Source: Paraburkholderia sp. NMBU_R16
Lineage (GTDB): Bacteria > Pseudomonadota > Gammaproteobacteria > Burkholderiales > Burkholderiaceae
Reading direction: 5' to 3'
Assembly: GCF_013282575.1 (NCBI RefSeq)
Contig: NZ_JAAAYE010000007.1
Coordinates: 1 to 64,000, forward strand
Length of the DNA: 64,000 bases
In this document: positions 21,794 to 33,561 of the stretch, piece after piece
Layout: each line of letters begins with the position of its first letter
Numbering within the stretch: position 1 is the stretch's first letter
The notes under the pieces: model-generated
Database searches by the model: none
Seen by the model: only the letters and a program-made list of their open reading frames with translations
Told to the model about the DNA's origin: nothing
Translations under genes and position numbers: made by a program

Positions 21794-24324
21794 TGCGAGA
21801 CCCCATGGCGCACCGATCCGATTCCGGTTCTCCTCGCCGCGCGCTACTGCGCCGGCGTCCGGTGCAGCTCTGGTTGCTGTTTCTGATCGGGTGCGCGATC
21901 GCGATTCAACGCGCCCACTTTACAGCGGACCTTTCCGCATTCCTGCCGCGCGCGCCGAGCGCACAGCAGCGTTTGCTCGTCGACCAATTGCGCGAGGGTG
22001 TCATCTCGCGGCTCATCATCGTCGCAATCGTTGGCGGCGATGCGGCCACGCGCGCCGAACTCTCGCACGGCATCGCGGCGACACTGCGCCGCGATCTGCG
22101 CTTCGTTTCAGTGAACAACGGGGAGCCCGTCACGCAGGCGCTCGACGAGCGCTTCGTTTTCGAGCATCGCTATCTACTAAGCCCCGCAGTCACGCCGCAG
22201 CGGTTCTCTGCCGAGGGCCTGCACAGTGCGCTTGGCGAGAGCCTCGATTTGCTGAGTTCATCGGCGGGGCTCATGTCGAAAGCACTGCTGCCGCGCGACC
22301 CGACTGGCGAGGTGACGGCCATCGTCGGCCAGTTCGACGGCGAGGCGCAGCCGGCCTCCGCCGATGGCGTATGGGCCTCGCGCGACGGCAAACGCGCGTT
22401 GCTCGTCGTGCAGACGGCCGGCGCCGGCTCGGACACCGACGCGCAGGAAAGTGCGATCGCCGCCGTGCGGGCGGCATTCGACGCAGCCGCGCATGGCAAG
22501 CCAACCGCATCGTCGTGCCGGTTGCTGCTCACGGGGCCCGGCGTGTTCTCGGTCGAAACGCGCGATACGATCAAACACGATGTCGAGAAGCTGTCCATCA
22601 TCAGCCTCGCGCTGATCGTCGGGCTTCTGTTGCTCGTCTATCGTTCCCCGCTCACGCTGGCGCTTGGGCTCGTTCCCGTTGCGTCAGGCGTGGCTGCCGG
22701 CCTCGCGGCAGTGAGCCTTGCGTTCGGCACCGTGCACGGTCTCACGCTCGGATTCGGTACGACGCTGATCGGCGAAGCCGTCGATTATTCGATCTATCTG
22801 TTCATTCAATCGGCGCGGCATGACAAGTCAGAGGCCAGTGGCGATGCGATGCGCGCATGGATCGCCCGTTATTGGCCGACGATCCGGCTCGGCATGTTGA
22901 CGTCGGTCTGCGGCTTCGCGTCGATGCTGTTCTCAGGCTTCCCGGGGCTCGTGCAACTGGGCCTGTACTCGATGGTCGGCCTCGCGGCCGCCGCCGCGGT
23001 GACGCGTTATGTGCTGCCTCATCTGGGCACTCGCGCACCGGCCGTTCGCGATCTCTCGCGTCTCGGCACCTTGCTGGCTCGGGCGGCGGATGCGGCTGGC
23101 CGCCTGCGCTGGCCGTTTGCGGCGCTGATGATCGGCGCAGTGGCCGCCCTCGCGCTGCATCGCGGCCAGTTGTGGAGTCACGAGCTGTCGTCGCTGAGCC
23201 CCGTCCCCGCGTCGAGCCAGGCGCTCGATGCGGCGTTGCGGGCCGATGTCGGGGCGCCCGATGTCCGCTATCTGGTCGTCGTCTCGGGCGCGAGCGAGCA
23301 GGCCGCGCTCGAAGGCGCCGAAAAAATTGCCATGCGGTTGCAGCCGCTGGTCGACTCGGGCACGCTGGCCGGCTTCGATAGCCCGGCCCGCTATCTGCCG
23401 AGCGACGCGACTCAACGCGCGCGGCTCGCGAGCCTTCCGCCCGCGGACGTGCTCGAAGCGCGCATGCGCTCGGCGGTGGCCAACCAGACTATCGGCGTGA
23501 AGCCCGACGTGTTCGCCCCGTTCGTCGCCGATGTAGAGAAAGCGCGCAACGCTCCGCTTTTGCGTCGCGAAGATCTGCGAGGAACGTCGATGGGACTGGC
23601 CGTGGACGCACTGTTGACCGAGCGCGACGGCCAATGGCAAGCGATGCTGTCGTTACGGGCGCCCGCGAAGCCGGGGGCTGCAGCGCCGCCCGCGAACGAG
23701 ACGAGTCTCGACGCGCATGCGATCGAAACGGCCGTCGCCGGTGCCGGCGTAACGGGCGCGCTTTTCGTCGACCTCAAAAAAGAAGCCGACGACCTCTACG
23801 TAAATTACGTGTACGAGGACATTCGCTTGTCGCTTGCCGGATTCGCGGCGATCGTCGTGTTGCTGTTCGTCGCATTGCGCGACCCGCGGCGCGTCGTCAG
23901 TACGCTCGTGCCGTTGATCGCGGCCGTGCTCGTCGTGACGGCCGCGTTCGCGCTGTTCCACGAGCCGCTCACGATCCTGCATTTGATCGGGCTGCTGCTG
24001 ATCGTCGCGATCGGCTCGAACTATGCGCTGTTTTTCAATCGACGAAACGACGCATCGAGTGCCGATTCGACCGGGACGTCCCCCGCCGCACGGACCGTTG
24101 CACCGCTGACGCTCGCCTCGCTGCTGATCGCCAACCTGGCGACTGTCGCAGGATTCGGATTGCTGGCGCTCTCGCATGTGCCGATGCTCGAATCGTTCGG
24201 GCTGACTGTCGGCCCGGGCGCGATTCTGGCGCTGCTGTTTTCGGCGATTCTGGCGCCGCGCGCACCGCACACGGCATTGTCGCGGGCAACGACCGATGAG
24301 CCGGGCCAAAGGAAGACGGCATGA
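21793..24324 (+). CDS. MMPL-family exporter of the aryl polyene cluster
   Basis: RND-superfamily exporter of 843 aa, inner membrane. It has the MMPL layout: helix 1, a large periplasmic domain, five helices (LSIISLALIVGLLLLVYRS onwards, with GFGTTLIGEAVDYSIYLF), then a second half with the same pattern (YEDIRLSLAGFAAIVVLL, HLIGLLLIVAIGSNYALFF). The polar residues in the fourth helix of each half suggest proton-driven transport. It would move the polyene lipid out of the inner membrane. It begins in a TGATG overlap with lolA-like and ends in an ATGA overlap with the deacetylase. Confidence 0.9.
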   Translation: MRDPMAHRSDSGSPRRALLRRRPVQLWLLFLIGCAIAIQRAHFTADLSAFLPRAPSAQQRLLVDQLREGVISRLIIVAIVGGDAATRAELSHGIAATLRRDLRFVSVNNGEPVTQALDERFVFEHRYLLSPAVTPQRFSAEGLHSALGESLDLLSSSAGLMSKALLPRDPTGEVTAIVGQFDGEAQPASADGVWASRDGKRALLVVQTAGAGSDTDAQESAIAAVRAAFDAAAHGKPTASSCRLLLTGPGVFSVETRDTIKHDVEKLSIISLALIVGLLLLVYRSPLTLALGLVPVASGVAAGLAAVSLAFGTVHGLTLGFGTTLIGEAVDYSIYLFIQSARHDKSEASGDAMRAWIARYWPTIRLGMLTSVCGFASMLFSGFPGLVQLGLYSMVGLAAAAAVTRYVLPHLGTRAPAVRDLSRLGTLLARAADAAGRLRWPFAALMIGAVAALALHRGQLWSHELSSLSPVPASSQALDAALRADVGAPDVRYLVVVSGASEQAALEGAEKIAMRLQPLVDSGTLAGFDSPARYLPSDATQRARLASLPPADVLEARMRSAVANQTIGVKPDVFAPFVADVEKARNAPLLRREDLRGTSMGLAVDALLTERDGQWQAMLSLRAPAKPGAAAPPANETSLDAHAIETAVAGAGVTGALFVDLKKEADDLYVNYVYEDIRLSLAGFAAIVVLLFVALRDPRRVVSTLVPLIAAVLVVTAAFALFHEPLTILHLIGLLLIVAIGSNYALFFNRRNDASSADSTGTSPAARTVAPLTLASLLIANLATVAGFGLLALSHVPMLESFGLTVGPGAILALLFSAILAPRAPHTALSRATTDEPGQRKTA

Positions 24325-25259
24325 ACGAGCCAACGCCACTGCCGCTCGTCCGCCCGTCCGCCGGCTCGCAGGCCGGCAGCCCGCGACGCTGGCGCCCCAC
24401 CCCGCTCGTCGGCGGCACGATTGCGTTGCACGCAGGCGCCGTCACGGCACTGGCCGTGCAACCGGCGTGCTGGCCCTACGCGGCCGGCGCAGTCGCGCTT
24501 TCTCATACCTTGCTGACGGCCGCAGGACTGTGGCCGCGCAGCGCATGGCTTGGACCGAACTGGACTGCATTGCCCGAATCCGCTCGCGATCGGCATCAGA
24601 TCGCGATCACGATAGACGACGGCCCCGATCCCGAGGTCACGCCGCGTGTGCTCGAGTTGCTCGATCGCTATGAAGCGCATGCGACGTTCTTCTGCATCGG
24701 CGAAGCCGCGCGCCGCCATCCTGCGCTCGTCGAAGCGATCGCGACTCACGGACACGCCATCGAGAACCACAGCCAGCATCATCGGCATTATTTTTCGCTG
24801 CTTGGGCCACGAGGACTGCAACGCGAGATCGATGCCGCCCAACGCACGCTGACGGAGTTGAGCGGTACGGTGCCGCTGTTCTTTCGCGCGCCTGCCGGAC
24901 TGCGCAACCCGTTTCTCGAGCCCGTGCTGTGCCGGCTCGGTCTGCAGCTCGCGAGTTGGACGCGGCGCGGATTCGATACGCGGACCTCCGATGCCGGCCT
25001 CGTCGCAAAGCGGCTGCTGCGCGGCCTCTCGGCGCGCGACATCCTGCTGCTGCATGACGGCCACGCCGCGCGCGACGCGCAAGGCCGGCCGGTCGTGCTC
25101 GATGCACTCGAGACAGTATTGCGTGCGGCGCGCGACGCTCGACTGCAATGCACGACGCTGCGCGCCGCCATGACAGAGGTACCCGAGACCAACGCAACGG
25201 TAACGGTCGCCAAGACGACCGCTCATCATCGATACGAAGCACATCGGCATCCGGATTGA
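24321..25259 (+). CDS. Polysaccharide deacetylase (NodB-fold) in the aryl polyene cluster
   Basis: Protein of 312 aa with two N-terminal hydrophobic segments (about 30-70), then a NodB homology domain: motif 1 TIDDGPDP (97-104, catalytic Asp pair), motif 2 ENHSQHH (metal-binding His), motif 3 FRAPAGLRNP and motif 5 LLLHDGHA. The key residues of a metal-dependent CE4 deacetylase are present. Its substrate in a pigment cluster is unknown; the lipid-sugar head group made with the GT2 enzyme is one candidate. It overlaps the MMPL stop and ends 5 bp before the ketosynthase. Confidence 0.87.
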   Translation: MNEPTPLPLVRPSAGSQAGSPRRWRPTPLVGGTIALHAGAVTALAVQPACWPYAAGAVALSHTLLTAAGLWPRSAWLGPNWTALPESARDRHQIAITIDDGPDPEVTPRVLELLDRYEAHATFFCIGEAARRHPALVEAIATHGHAIENHSQHHRHYFSLLGPRGLQREIDAAQRTLTELSGTVPLFFRAPAGLRNPFLEPVLCRLGLQLASWTRRGFDTRTSDAGLVAKRLLRGLSARDILLLHDGHAARDAQGRPVVLDALETVLRAARDARLQCTTLRAAMTEVPETNATVTVAKTTAHHRYEAHRHPD

Positions 25260-28208: not shown

Positions 28209-28399
28209 CGACGGATCGCAGCGTTGCAGGGTTCTTAGATTCTGTTTTGCAGCCCCAACGCCGCTCAACCGCCTCCCAAAACTGGCAGTACGGCAGCGGC
28301 GAATTTCCATGCCAATATCGCGAGCCCAGCCCTAATGAACCGGACAACGGACTTGTTGCCGGCGCAGTTGGGTTTCTGCCTCGATCGAGAAAATGCCGC

Positions 28400-29378
28400 A
28401 TGTGTAGAATGTTTGGGCTATTCGGAAGCAATAAGCGCGAAAAGGTCATCGAGATCATCGAATACCTGAACGCCGGAGGACCAGACGAGCAAAACGTTCG
28501 ATTTCTGCGCACCGGCTTGCTCGGGCATACTCGTGTGCCCGTCAACGGCCTGCTAAATGGCAGTCAACCCTATACTCTCGACGGCCGGCACTGCATATTC
28601 GTCGGAGAGATCTACAACCACAGGGCGTTATCGTCCACATACGGAATCGCCCGAGACGTAGATGATGCCGATGGTTGCGTCATCTTGCCGTTGTTCGATC
28701 GCCTCGGCCCTCGCTTCGTCGAGAAGCTCGAGGGAATGTTCGCCATTGCCATCGTCGACACGCGGCAAAACGACAAGCTACGTCGGCGATCTGGCAGCCA
28801 TACCCAGCCGCCTTCGCGCCCGCTTGATCGAGCCGGAGGCGCTCGACATGCAATACGCCATGCGATTGGAGGACTTCATTCGCAACCTGCCTGGATGCGG
28901 CTGGTTCCGCAAGATTCTCCACTTTGAAGCGAAGCATCGGCTGCCGTATTACATACTCCATCGAGTGGACGCGCTGAGCATGGCCCATTCGGTCGAGGCA
29001 CGCGTTCCATTTTGCCTGCCTTCGGTCTATCGACACGCGTTGGTTTGCGAAAACGAGCAACTGGTTGACCGGCAGGCGCGCAAGCGGCCGATCTATGATT
29101 GCGCGCGAGGCATTTTGCCGGAAGCGATCATGACGCGGCACAAGCAGCCGTTTTTGCTGCCGATTGCTGGGATGTTGCGGCCGGGCTTTGCGATATTCGA
29201 TTACCTCATGGACACGTTGGGCTCGTCTTGCCGAACGTTCGACTTCATCAACAAGGACGTGCTGCTCGGATGCATCGAGGAAAACGTGAATCGGCCGACT
29301 ACGGCTCTCGGCAATTCGATTTGGGCTTGGCTGATCTTCGAGTTGTGGGCCAATGAGCACGACGTCGCGTTCCGTTAA
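28400..29378 (+). pseudogene. Broken asparagine synthetase (AsnB-type), internally deleted and frameshifted
   Basis: The 5' part (28400 to about 28775) encodes the glutamine-amidotransferase start of an AsnB-like enzyme: M-C-R-M-FG with nucleophile Cys2, then GHTRVPVNG, FVGEIYNH and LEGMFAIAIVDTR. Beyond about 28780 homology continues in another frame and far downstream in the protein: the C-terminal synthetase region LPYYILHRVDALSMAHSVEARVPF (quoted in part) through to a stop at 29378. The ATP-pyrophosphatase loop (SGGxDS) and the region around it are missing. A deletion plus frameshift has inactivated it. Codon use is less GC-rich than in the flanking pigment genes. Confidence 0.82.
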
Positions 29379-30992: not shown

Positions 30993-31261
30993 TACGTCGA
31001 GATGAAGGCAAGTGTCTGGGAGGCGATTAGCTTACGGCAACGGCTCGCATTTGCACTGGCAGAGGTGTTTGAAGGAGATCTGCTTGATCGCCACGCGCTT
31101 CGTGCGTGGCCGGCCGTCACCGATGATAACGGCTTCGGTTCCGCGCGCGACAAAGTCCCTCGTGTCGCGAAGAAACAGGCCGCGACCCTCTGCCGCCTTT
31201 CGTCAAGTCGCGGATTCAGCCCACATGCGGTCTGCGGCTCGGTCTCGGCCCGCGAGTTCGG
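30993..31261. other. 269-bp intergenic stretch upstream of arsH with an unassigned open frame
   Basis: On the minus strand an open frame of 56 codons (31032-31202) has codon use like real genes here and reads ...LFLRDTRDFVARGTEAVIIG..., ending in a Cys-rich CQCKCEPLP, but has no ATG, GTG or TTG near its 5' end. On the plus strand, codons from 31002 read [20 protein letters not shown], which recalls a DUF1800 motif. Neither is strong enough to call a gene. Confidence 0.3.
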
Positions 31262-32374
31262 TCATAAGTCCGGCATGGGCTTGATTTCGACCAGCCGCTG
31301 GATGCGGTGCTGAGCGAGATACGCGGCGAGTTCGAGATCGGTGGGAATGGGTTCGTCCGCATATTTCTGTGAATGCCTGATACCCGCATGGAGCGACGCC
31401 AGTTCTGACCAAGGACGCGCGGAAGGCCCCGATCCGTCGGTGGTGCGCTGAAGTGTTTCGTCATGCATCGCAAATGGCACTGGAACCGGATCGGTCGTGA
31501 TGTTGACGTCGTACTCGGCCGCACGATAGCCATACCGAACCGTCTCGCGGGCCCCCGCCAGTGTGTTTTCTGGCGCGATCCTGAACTCTCGCGGGTCGGT
31601 TTTCCCGCTGAACCGATGTGCAACCAGTTCTGGGCAGTGCCATGGGGGCAAGTCGTAAGCGTCTTGGGCTCTGCCGTCGGAGCCTGTTCCTGCTTTTTTG
31701 TCCCAACGTAGGCAGGCGTCAGGAGCTATCTCATGAATCATGTCGGTAACGACGCTGTCGATCCCCCAGGAAAACAACTGCCTCATTCTGTCCAAGTCAT
31801 TCACCGTGTAGCACATGATACGGAATCCACCTTCATGCGCCGTCTTGATGATCTCAGGCGAAATATCGGTGTGGTCCAGATCTATCGCGACGCACTCAAG
31901 GCTGTGCAAACGATCGATCCAGTTGCGAGGCAATCTCCCGGTTTCGACGTTCAGCACGCGCTGCAACTCCGGGGCCGCTTCACGCGCGCCTCTCAGAGCG
32001 GGTTCCGAGAATGACAGCATCAGTGGTGGGACGGCCTCTGATCGAGATGTCTCGAGCGTTTGAAGGGCTACGGCAACGCCTGTGACATATTCGATCCCCC
32101 CATTCTCGTTGGCATGACGCAAGGCCGCTTGATGTCGCCCCAGCAAGGTTAGAGGACGGCCCGCACCGCCGGTTTCGGCATCATCCGGCTTAGCGGGGGC
32201 TCCGCCAATGGGTCCAGTCCGTGCTCGCTTCGGCAGTCCATCGAGTCGCGGAGAGTTCCCCGGCGGCACACCGCCGGCTGCTGGCACGGCGGTTGGGGAA
32301 GCGTCATTCACGGCCGATGCTTGCGGAATATCAATATCGCGCGGCGCCCGCGAACTGCCAGACGTTCTTTCCAT
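31262..32374 (-). CDS. Glycerophosphodiester phosphodiesterase with swapped half-barrels
   Basis: Protein of 370 aa. Residues 1-75 are a Pro/Ala/Gly-rich disordered leader. Residues about 97-220 match the second half of a GDPD barrel: LMLSFSEPALRGAREAAPEL (117 on), MCYTVNDLDRMRQLFSWGID and VVTDMIHEIAP. Residues about 248-368 match the first half: VAHR (H253, R254), IAPENT (E269, N270), AEYDV (E287, D289), MHDETLQRTT (H304, D305) and EIKP (E363). All first-half catalytic residues are kept, but the halves are in reverse order to normal GDPDs, so the protein appears circularly permuted. The ATG at 32374 has GAAGGG about 10 nt upstream. There is no signal peptide. The leader resembles those of secreted effectors; that is inference. 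Confidence 0.82.
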   Translation of the reverse strand: MERTSGSSRAPRDIDIPQASAVNDASPTAVPAAGGVPPGNSPRLDGLPKRARTGPIGGAPAKPDDAETGGAGRPLTLLGRHQAALRHANENGGIEYVTGVAVALQTLETSRSEAVPPLMLSFSEPALRGAREAAPELQRVLNVETGRLPRNWIDRLHSLECVAIDLDHTDISPEIIKTAHEGGFRIMCYTVNDLDRMRQLFSWGIDSVVTDMIHEIAPDACLRWDKKAGTGSDGRAQDAYDLPPWHCPELVAHRFSGKTDPREFRIAPENTLAGARETVRYGYRAAEYDVNITTDPVPVPFAMHDETLQRTTDGSGPSARPWSELASLHAGIRHSQKYADEPIPTDLELAAYLAQHRIQRLVEIKPMPDL

Positions 32375-32880
32375 GATGCAGTAGCCCTTCAAATAGCTCG
32401 AGCGCACGGCTCGTTGCAGCATTAGGTAGTCAGGAAAACATAGTGCACGCTCAATTCTAAGAGCGCTGATCGCTGAAAGCCGACGGCTTTCGCGACGCAC
32501 GCGATGGCCAAACGACGTTTTTGTCGCGATGAGCGTGGTTGGTCGAACGCAGCCCAGCGTGGCCGCCATGCATGGCGTCGTCGACGCATCGCACGATGCC
32601 TTTCATTGCATTTCGCCCAGTGATACCGCATTTGACGTATTTATCGCGGACCTGCTGTTCCCGTACCTTTCCAAATACGCGAAACGCGTCTCAGATCAGC
32701 CCCGTCGATCCGAGTTCATTCCAGAGTTGCAGTGACGTTCATTCATTCCTGAGGCGGCCGCCCGGTCGTGGCAGCTTCCCCTTGCCGGAACGCATCACGC
32801 TGATACACCGGCCGCGCAGCCTAAACGCATCACATACATCACTCGCAAGTCCCCACATTGCTTTGAGAGGAGCAACGAAC
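32375..32880. promoter_or_regulatory. 506-bp divergent intergenic region with a strong hairpin
   Basis: Between the leftward GDPD and the rightward DNase I-like gene. A hairpin at 32470-32495 (TCGC-T-GAAAGCC, GAC loop, GGCTTTC-GCGA; 11 bp with one bulge) lies 96 bp upstream of the GDPD start. No gene is supported; short open frames here lack recognisable homology. Promoters for both genes must be in this region. Confidence 0.5.
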
Positions 32881-33561
32881 ATGACTTACATCACCATCGC
32901 AGCGTTCAACATCGAGAAAAACGGGCAGTCGTCGGATCCCTTCAAGCAGCAAAAGGTTTCCGAGTTCGTCGACTATTGCTGTAAGCGAGGAACGGATTTG
33001 ATCTTTCTCTGTGAGGTGCACTCGGCGCGGATCCAAGACTACGTCGCCTTTCTGAAGAGTGTGTATTCCGAGCACTACCATTGCGAATCGCTCGACGGTG
33101 GACATAGCAATGCCTATGTCGTCATGCACAAGAAGTCCGTCGGCTTCAGCCTATCCTACGACCAGTTGAACCACCTGAATCGCAACTTCTTGTTGTGTAC
33201 GATCGAGAACAAGCTCGGCGTCGGATTTGCTCATTTCAAATCCGGTCAGACGGGCCTGACAAAAAATCAAATCGAGAATGCCGCCGAATTTGTGAACGGT
33301 ATGCTCGGCGACACATGGGCCATCGCCGGCGATATGAACTGGGATATGGCCAACTTCAACAAGCTCAAGCTGCCGGCCGGGTCCCACTGCGCGAGCTGCT
33401 GGCCCGATATGACGCAGGCCAGCGGCGGCATCTTGGATTGGTGCCTTGCAGGCAAGGGCGTCAAACTCGCGGCAGCGAACGGTTACACAGAGTTCCATAA
33501 GGACTTCCAGACGATGGATGGTCCCGATCACCGGCCGGTGTTGTTTCAGCTCGAGTTTTGA
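32881..33561 (+). CDS. Endonuclease/exonuclease/phosphatase (DNase I-like) family protein
   Basis: Protein of 226 aa with the EEP fold. AAFNIEKNG (N10), FLCEVHS (E45, metal ligand), FAHFKSG (H118), AGDMNWD (D151, N153), LDW (D187) and the terminal GPDHRPVLF (D216, H217 catalytic pair) cover the expected active site. It has no signal peptide. Family members cleave DNA, phosphoinositides or nucleotides (ExoIII, DNase I, CdtB, sphingomyelinase), so the substrate is open. AGAGGAG lies just before the ATG. Codon use is less GC-rich than in core genes, suggesting recent transfer. It stands alone opposite the permuted phosphodiesterase. Confidence 0.85.
   Translation: MTYITIAAFNIEKNGQSSDPFKQQKVSEFVDYCCKRGTDLIFLCEVHSARIQDYVAFLKSVYSEHYHCESLDGGHSNAYVVMHKKSVGFSLSYDQLNHLNRNFLLCTIENKLGVGFAHFKSGQTGLTKNQIENAAEFVNGMLGDTWAIAGDMNWDMANFNKLKLPAGSHCASCWPDMTQASGGILDWCLAGKGVKLAAANGYTEFHKDFQTMDGPDHRPVLFQLEF

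Follow-up and report, generated by a model that had tools for sequence, protein, structure and literature searches.

The window analysed here is a stretch of 64,000 nucleotides of Paraburkholderia sp. NMBU_R16 DNA. On its minus strand lies a gene for a glycerophosphodiester phosphodiesterase (GDPD) of the UgpQ type in which the two halves of the enzyme appear in swapped order (Table 1). The open reading frame begins with the ATG at 32374, ends with the stop codon at 31264-31262, and contains no internal stops. It encodes 370 residues and lies at the coordinates given in the original prediction, which was made from the sequence before the present analysis. The frame stays open further upstream, up to an ATG at 32569, but the inner ATG was adopted as the start, as it had been before. 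About 100 nt 5' of this ATG, an inverted repeat with a 1-base loop, GAAAGCCG-A-CGGCTTTC, was noticed by eye at 32475-32491; it is a possible operator.

Table 1. Coordinates of the permuted GDPD gene, its parts and its neighbours in the window
Feature	Position	Strand	Remarks
Permuted GDPD gene, 370 aa	31262..32374	-	ORF; PF03009, NF006989 and 2otd matches
Leader, residues 1-92	32099..32374	-	Ala/Gly/Pro rich; without GDPD similarity
Second (C-terminal) UgpQ-type half, residues 93-220	31715..32098	-	comes first in the permuted GDPD
Linker, residues 221-244	31643..31714	-	between the ancestral C- and N-termini
First (N-terminal) UgpQ-type half, residues 245-370	31265..31642	-	comes last in the permuted GDPD
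Insert TDPREFR, residues 259-265	31580..31600	-	between HRFSGK and the PENT motif; alignment
PAAR-like fragment	31035..31148	-	~110 nt past the permuted GDPD stop; a neighbour, not part of the enzyme
Endonuclease/exonuclease/phosphatase-like small ORF	32851-33561	+	PF03372, E 8e-4, below cut-off
Asparagine-synthase-like (asnB-like) gene	28247-29378	+	split over two frames, the glutamine amidotransferase part ahead of the synthase part

The PAAR-like fragment comprises 37-48 aa that align at 52-59% identity with the C-terminal portion of PAAR proteins from three sister genomes. Pfam recognises PAAR in two of the sister proteins, and DUF6708 lies just ahead of PAAR at two sister loci. The fragment by itself matched no Pfam family and was not reported by the genome-wide PAAR search, so that its identity rests on the sister alignments. 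A single DUF6708 query found no match within the window. The fragment is followed by arsH. Upstream of the permuted GDPD gene, the small endonuclease/exonuclease/phosphatase-like ORF is a divergent neighbour, for which no relative was found in plasmids or the PDB. The asnB-like gene looks like a pseudogene. Because this split gene and the PAAR-like fragment lie nearby, part of the locus seems to be degenerating.

Order of the two halves and the active site

The family profile PF03009 matches the protein in two stretches with 96.8 bits, well above its cut-off of 23.6. The UgpQ model NF006989 likewise matches in two stretches (E 2.5e-64), with a score of 217.1 bits that stays below the UgpQ equivalog cut-off of 264. 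In the alignment with PDB entry 2otd, residues 97-219 correspond to chain residues 124-243, and residues 244-367 to chain residues 3-118. A profile of 241 columns built from 26 normal UgpQs gives the same arrangement: its columns 116-241 match residues 92-219 (137.0 bits), and its columns 1-116 match residues 245-368 (95.3 bits). The two matches tile the profile once, overlap by a single column, and stand in the reverse of the canonical N-to-C order of motifs. LSFSE begins at residue 120, TVNDL at 190 and VVTD at 208, followed by AHRF at 252, APENT at 267, EYDV at 287, HDETL at 304 and EIKP at 363. As far as sequence comparison can tell, such a reversed two-stretch match is far beyond chance.

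Ten normal UgpQs, taken from other genomes and the host and all among the 26 members of the profile, each match it as a single piece running from column 1 to columns 238-241. In tblastn searches with normal UgpQs, the first half matches downstream of the second half for eight of ten queries among the matches listed. A profile with swapped order splits the normal UgpQs into two pieces. The permuted GDPD still matches it in two stretches, presumably because the long linker separates them, but these now follow the order of the profile. The accompanying rise from 234.1 to 237.4 bits (+3.3) is expected for a long linker and is no gain in itself. The swapped motif order described in the original prediction is therefore borne out by PF03009, NF006989, 2otd and the UgpQ profile, and the halves do not fall back into the usual order once the frame is checked.

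The halves share 35-53% identity with those of normal UgpQs. They were aligned with ten normal first halves and, to keep the register, with six of the ten second halves. In this alignment, nothing is lost and nothing repeated at the cut point, which lies between EIKPxP and GxExxTG. The chain is thereby shown, at the level of the alignment, to be cut directly after the fourth catalytic strand (EIKP), where the polypeptide had been predicted to end, and the old ends to be linked by about 24 residues. No leftover GDPD half was detected around the gene. On the flanks alone, the half-profiles reach at most 1.5 bits downstream and 1.0 bits upstream, against 8.0 and 9.7 bits for 50 codon-shuffled downstream sequences used as a control. 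Across the whole region, the best other match (3.1 bits) lies in another frame within the permuted GDPD gene, and both half-profiles give the leader and the linker no score above 0. The family search extended the first-half match to column 146, as if a second-half remnant lay 3' of the stop, and the half-profiles reject this remnant. A tblastn match (E 0.011) that overlaps the downstream area and the start of arsH has no support from the profile and was taken as chance.

HR, ExD, HD and EIK are the catalytic motifs of GDPDs. All of them are present in the permuted protein, as H253/R254, E287/D289, H304/D305 and E363/K365, together with PENT at 268-271; the claim that all first-half catalytic residues remain thus holds. 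Among the columns that are at least 95% conserved in the 26 normal UgpQs, 57 of 76 are kept (27 of 34 in the second half, 30 of 42 in the first). The HRG that follows strand 1 is replaced by HRF, its glycine being one of these conserved positions, and 18 further conserved columns are altered. The seven residues TDPREFR, inserted after HRFSGK and adjoining the active site, are absent from all ten aligned normal first halves. Neither this insert nor the G-to-F change in the loop after HR had been mentioned in the original prediction.

Predicted structure, relatives and origin

An AlphaFold model of the protein has a pTM of 0.73, with 164 residues at a pLDDT of at least 90, and the core is predicted with confidence over most of its length. 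The predicted chain runs from a helix through strand 5 to strand 8, the linker, and strand 1 to strand 4; the helix that opens the second half is the one that normally comes after the EIKP strand. Prediction thus shows a TIM-type barrel, and other TIM barrels align with the model over residues 94 to 358. The check proposed earlier, an AlphaFold model, therefore yields a barrel and not the failure to close that would have spoken against the permutation. Since the aligner is sequential and the barrel permuted, 2otd aligns over one half only (residues 93-222; 1.1 Å over 127 residues, 35% identity). It is the sole GDPD among the best 50 matches of VIA-align, where missing GDPDs mean little. The input to AlphaFold consisted of separate half-length rows with no paired sequences, so the way in which the halves touch in the model comes from the network. 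Confidence is lowest at the strand-1 loop (block pLDDT 74 and 67, residues 251-270), and pLDDT is below 50 over residues 229-247 in the linker region. The Pro/Ala-rich leader had been thought disordered. This stands for residues ~1-65, which have low confidence indicative of predicted disorder, but residues 77-87 are modelled as a helix (block pLDDT 83-87).

A homologue with the same order of halves, which the original prediction proposed to look for, was found neither in the genome sets nor by a scan for a DNA signature. Outside the window, no uninterrupted match across both halves occurs among 11 genus genomes (E 1e-12), 398 family and 399 order genomes (E 1e-22), or 369 class and 398 phylum genomes (E 1e-28). 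These five sets of 11-399 genomes overlap, and each includes the host. The four large searches scored no more than five candidates per genome and applied strict E limits; a permuted relative that had diverged could therefore escape them. Among the matches listed, some reach the linker position or go beyond it by reading through stop codons; G189, G315, G498 and G267, for example, pass residue 225 in this way. Three others that extend past the linker position (G397, G165 and G212) have no swapped order on reading; G397 is cut by a contig end, with the second half alone visible.

Within the 11 genus genomes, PF03009 finds 14 GDPD loci besides the gene in the window. Twelve of them match the full profile, and 11 of these 12 are the UgpQ loci of the protein search. 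The GDPDs at G009:C15 and G010:C17, which match PF03009 with their first half only, have the normal order on reading. The divergent GDPDs of sister genomes that have normal order and a first-half match only lie at L068 253-1263 (+) and L069 3493-4680 (-).

Matches to the protein were obtained in 32 plasmid and 16 phage records, none of which spans 80% of the query at a single place, and plasmids contain no DNA match to the gene region. The swapped-order DNA signature, which requires a similar linker length and certain codons, has one match, the window itself, and none in genome_contigs or viral_contigs, two collections that may omit records close to the window. A pattern scan for close relatives gave 50 matches in genome_contigs and nine in viral_contigs, with none confirmed. 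The open-licence literature searched yielded no permuted GDPD. In the collections searched, the gene is a singleton with no permuted relative, and it therefore gives no evidence of a conserved permuted form.

The host's normal UgpQ is encoded on a different contig and shares only 37-38% identity with the permuted GDPD. For these two reasons, the gene is not a mis-joined host ugpQ, and an assembly artefact from that source is ruled out. In trees of the separate halves, the branches of the second and the first half are equally long (1.51 and 1.48). The second half clusters with UgpQs of the genera g3 and g25 (91/87, under the star level), and the first half is unplaced. An origin within the host's own genus is rejected for the second half (p 0.0054); for the first half the rejection is weak (p 0.042). 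A common origin near g3, g25 and f10 is rejected for neither half (p 0.226 for the second and 0.092 for the first), and for the g3+g25 clade alone the first half gives a borderline result (p 0.055). The groups tested were picked after the trees had been seen, and the long branches make placement unsure.

The gene has a GC3 of 0.63 and a codon adaptation of 0.49, both below those of the intact neighbours compared; the latter is no better than that of one antisense frame (0.50). Its overall GC (0.60) is not unusual. The low codon adaptation and GC3 fit a foreign gene and equally an unimportant one. Taken together with the tree tests, they suggest that the gene is foreign to the host.

Interpretation and possible delivery

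We consider the gene product, with a probability of roughly 80%, to be a natural circular permutant of a UgpQ-type GDPD that has a TIM-barrel fold and keeps its catalytic residues. Since the cut adjoins the middle of the barrel, two half-barrels would have been exchanged. In the folded protein, HR, ExD, HD and EIKP would meet in space as in UgpQ, and by bringing them together the enzyme would hydrolyse glycerophosphodiesters via the usual metal-dependent His acid-base mechanism. Catalytic roles of ExD and of a histidine in GDPDs are described in PMC3228805. Compared with UgpQ (NF006989; 2otd), the permuted GDPD has the same catalytic residues and both halves, the second of which superposes as given above. 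It differs in the reversed halves, the added leader, the change from HRG to HRF and the 7-residue insert. The last two remodel the strand-1 loop, so the substrate range is perhaps shifted.

The ancestor was probably a UgpQ other than that of the host's genus, and the permutation would have followed. Permutations of this kind classically arise when a gene is duplicated in tandem, the copies fuse and the ends are trimmed; a tandem duplication that was later trimmed is a possible history here. The disordered leader would have been gained as well and may serve delivery.

The original prediction also allowed for a fusion of two truncated copies. In favour of two truncated GDPD genes of different parents joined head to tail, the nearest relatives differ between the halves: the trees place the second half with g3 and g25 and leave the first unplaced, with its borderline test against that clade. 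Such a chimera is nevertheless improbable: the halves tile one enzyme with an overlap of one column, no leftover half is detectable on either side, the branches are equally long, and a shared g3+g25+f10 origin is not rejected. Slightly less credible still is that the gene is a rearranged pseudogene, without function and in decay, whose frame is open by chance. The low codon adaptation, the decayed look of the neighbours and the want of relatives would agree with it. It would have to be reconciled, however, with a frame of 370 codons that is open throughout the halves and the linker, with a predicted core that is for the most part confident, and with the retention of every named catalytic residue and of 57 of 76 conserved columns despite branches of about 1.5 changes per site.

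A further proposal adds a claim of delivery to the circular permutant: the protein would be a type III or type VI effector acting on phospholipids or glycerophosphodiesters of a host or competitor. We regard this as a tentative idea, less likely than not. Delivery by a T3SS or T6SS is possible, judging from the gene content, because the genome has genes for both: three SctV-like genes, two of which pass the model cut-off and one of which falls just short of it, besides FlhA, three VipB genes, and PAAR matches over cut-off on four contigs. The leader is disordered and rich in Ala, Gly and Pro, and 19-residue windows in its blocks 1-30, 31-60 and 61-92 all have a mean hydropathy below 0. The codon usage is atypical, and the PAAR-like fragment follows closely downstream, with sister PAAR genes coming after a DUF6708 gene. 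This fragment is incomplete, however, lies 3' of the gene, and is the one that Pfam and the genome PAAR search passed over. A general scan recognised no VgrG, adaptor or immunity-like gene among 10 nearby ORFs, the leader matches nothing in anything searched, and no link between the gene and a secretion system was found at the locus or in the genome scan. The sequence TTCG-N16-TTCG is the consensus of the HrpB box, and other regulators are possible. No exact copy lies upstream of the gene; with at most one mismatch, the window has 97 sites, four of them exact, against 104 expected by chance.

Precedents for an effector role come from other systems. AvrBs2 is a Xanthomonas type III effector whose virulence function needs the GDPD catalytic site, according to PMC3228805. 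The permuted protein shares GDPD catalytic motifs with the AvrBs2 model NF041304 (residues 267-315 with profile positions 284-330; E 1.5e-5, a weak match). It is not a member of that family, because only this one short stretch of the 716-position profile matches, with 23.1 bits against a cut-off of 1000. GDPD is also listed among polymorphic-toxin domains in PMC3482391. According to PMC12994826, the permuted NlpC/P60 phospholipases Tox-Act1 and TseH are T6SS effectors and thus combine a permuted catalytic domain with a secreted, lipid-targeting protein. Their fold and chemistry are unrelated, and secretion of the permuted GDPD is a candidate property only.

Catalytic TIM barrels with a natural circular permutation have been described but are, to our knowledge, uncommon. 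According to PMC11046441, GH70 glucansucrases are circularly permuted relatives of GH13 barrels, running from helix 3 to strand 8 and then from strand 1 to strand 3. They resemble the circular permutant described here as natural (beta/alpha)8 permutations that start with a helix, pass from strand 8 to strand 1 and keep the active-site motifs. They differ in that they are unrelated glycoside hydrolases cut after strand 3, whereas the permuted GDPD is cut after the EIKP strand. That the protein is, in full, the first natural permuted GDPD, an active enzyme cut between half-barrels, derived from a foreign UgpQ, with a remodelled loop and a disordered leader, and serving as a secreted lipid-modifying effector, is an unlikely combination as a whole. 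The permuted GDPD offers a natural test of the half-barrel as an independent unit, and of what chain ends on the active-site face and a remodelled strand-1 loop do to specificity. Automatic annotation would probably call it an ordinary or a broken GDPD.

As a minor observation, the host genome contains a FHIPEP (SctV/FlhA-type) match in two gapped pieces on contig C63 at ~23257-25143.
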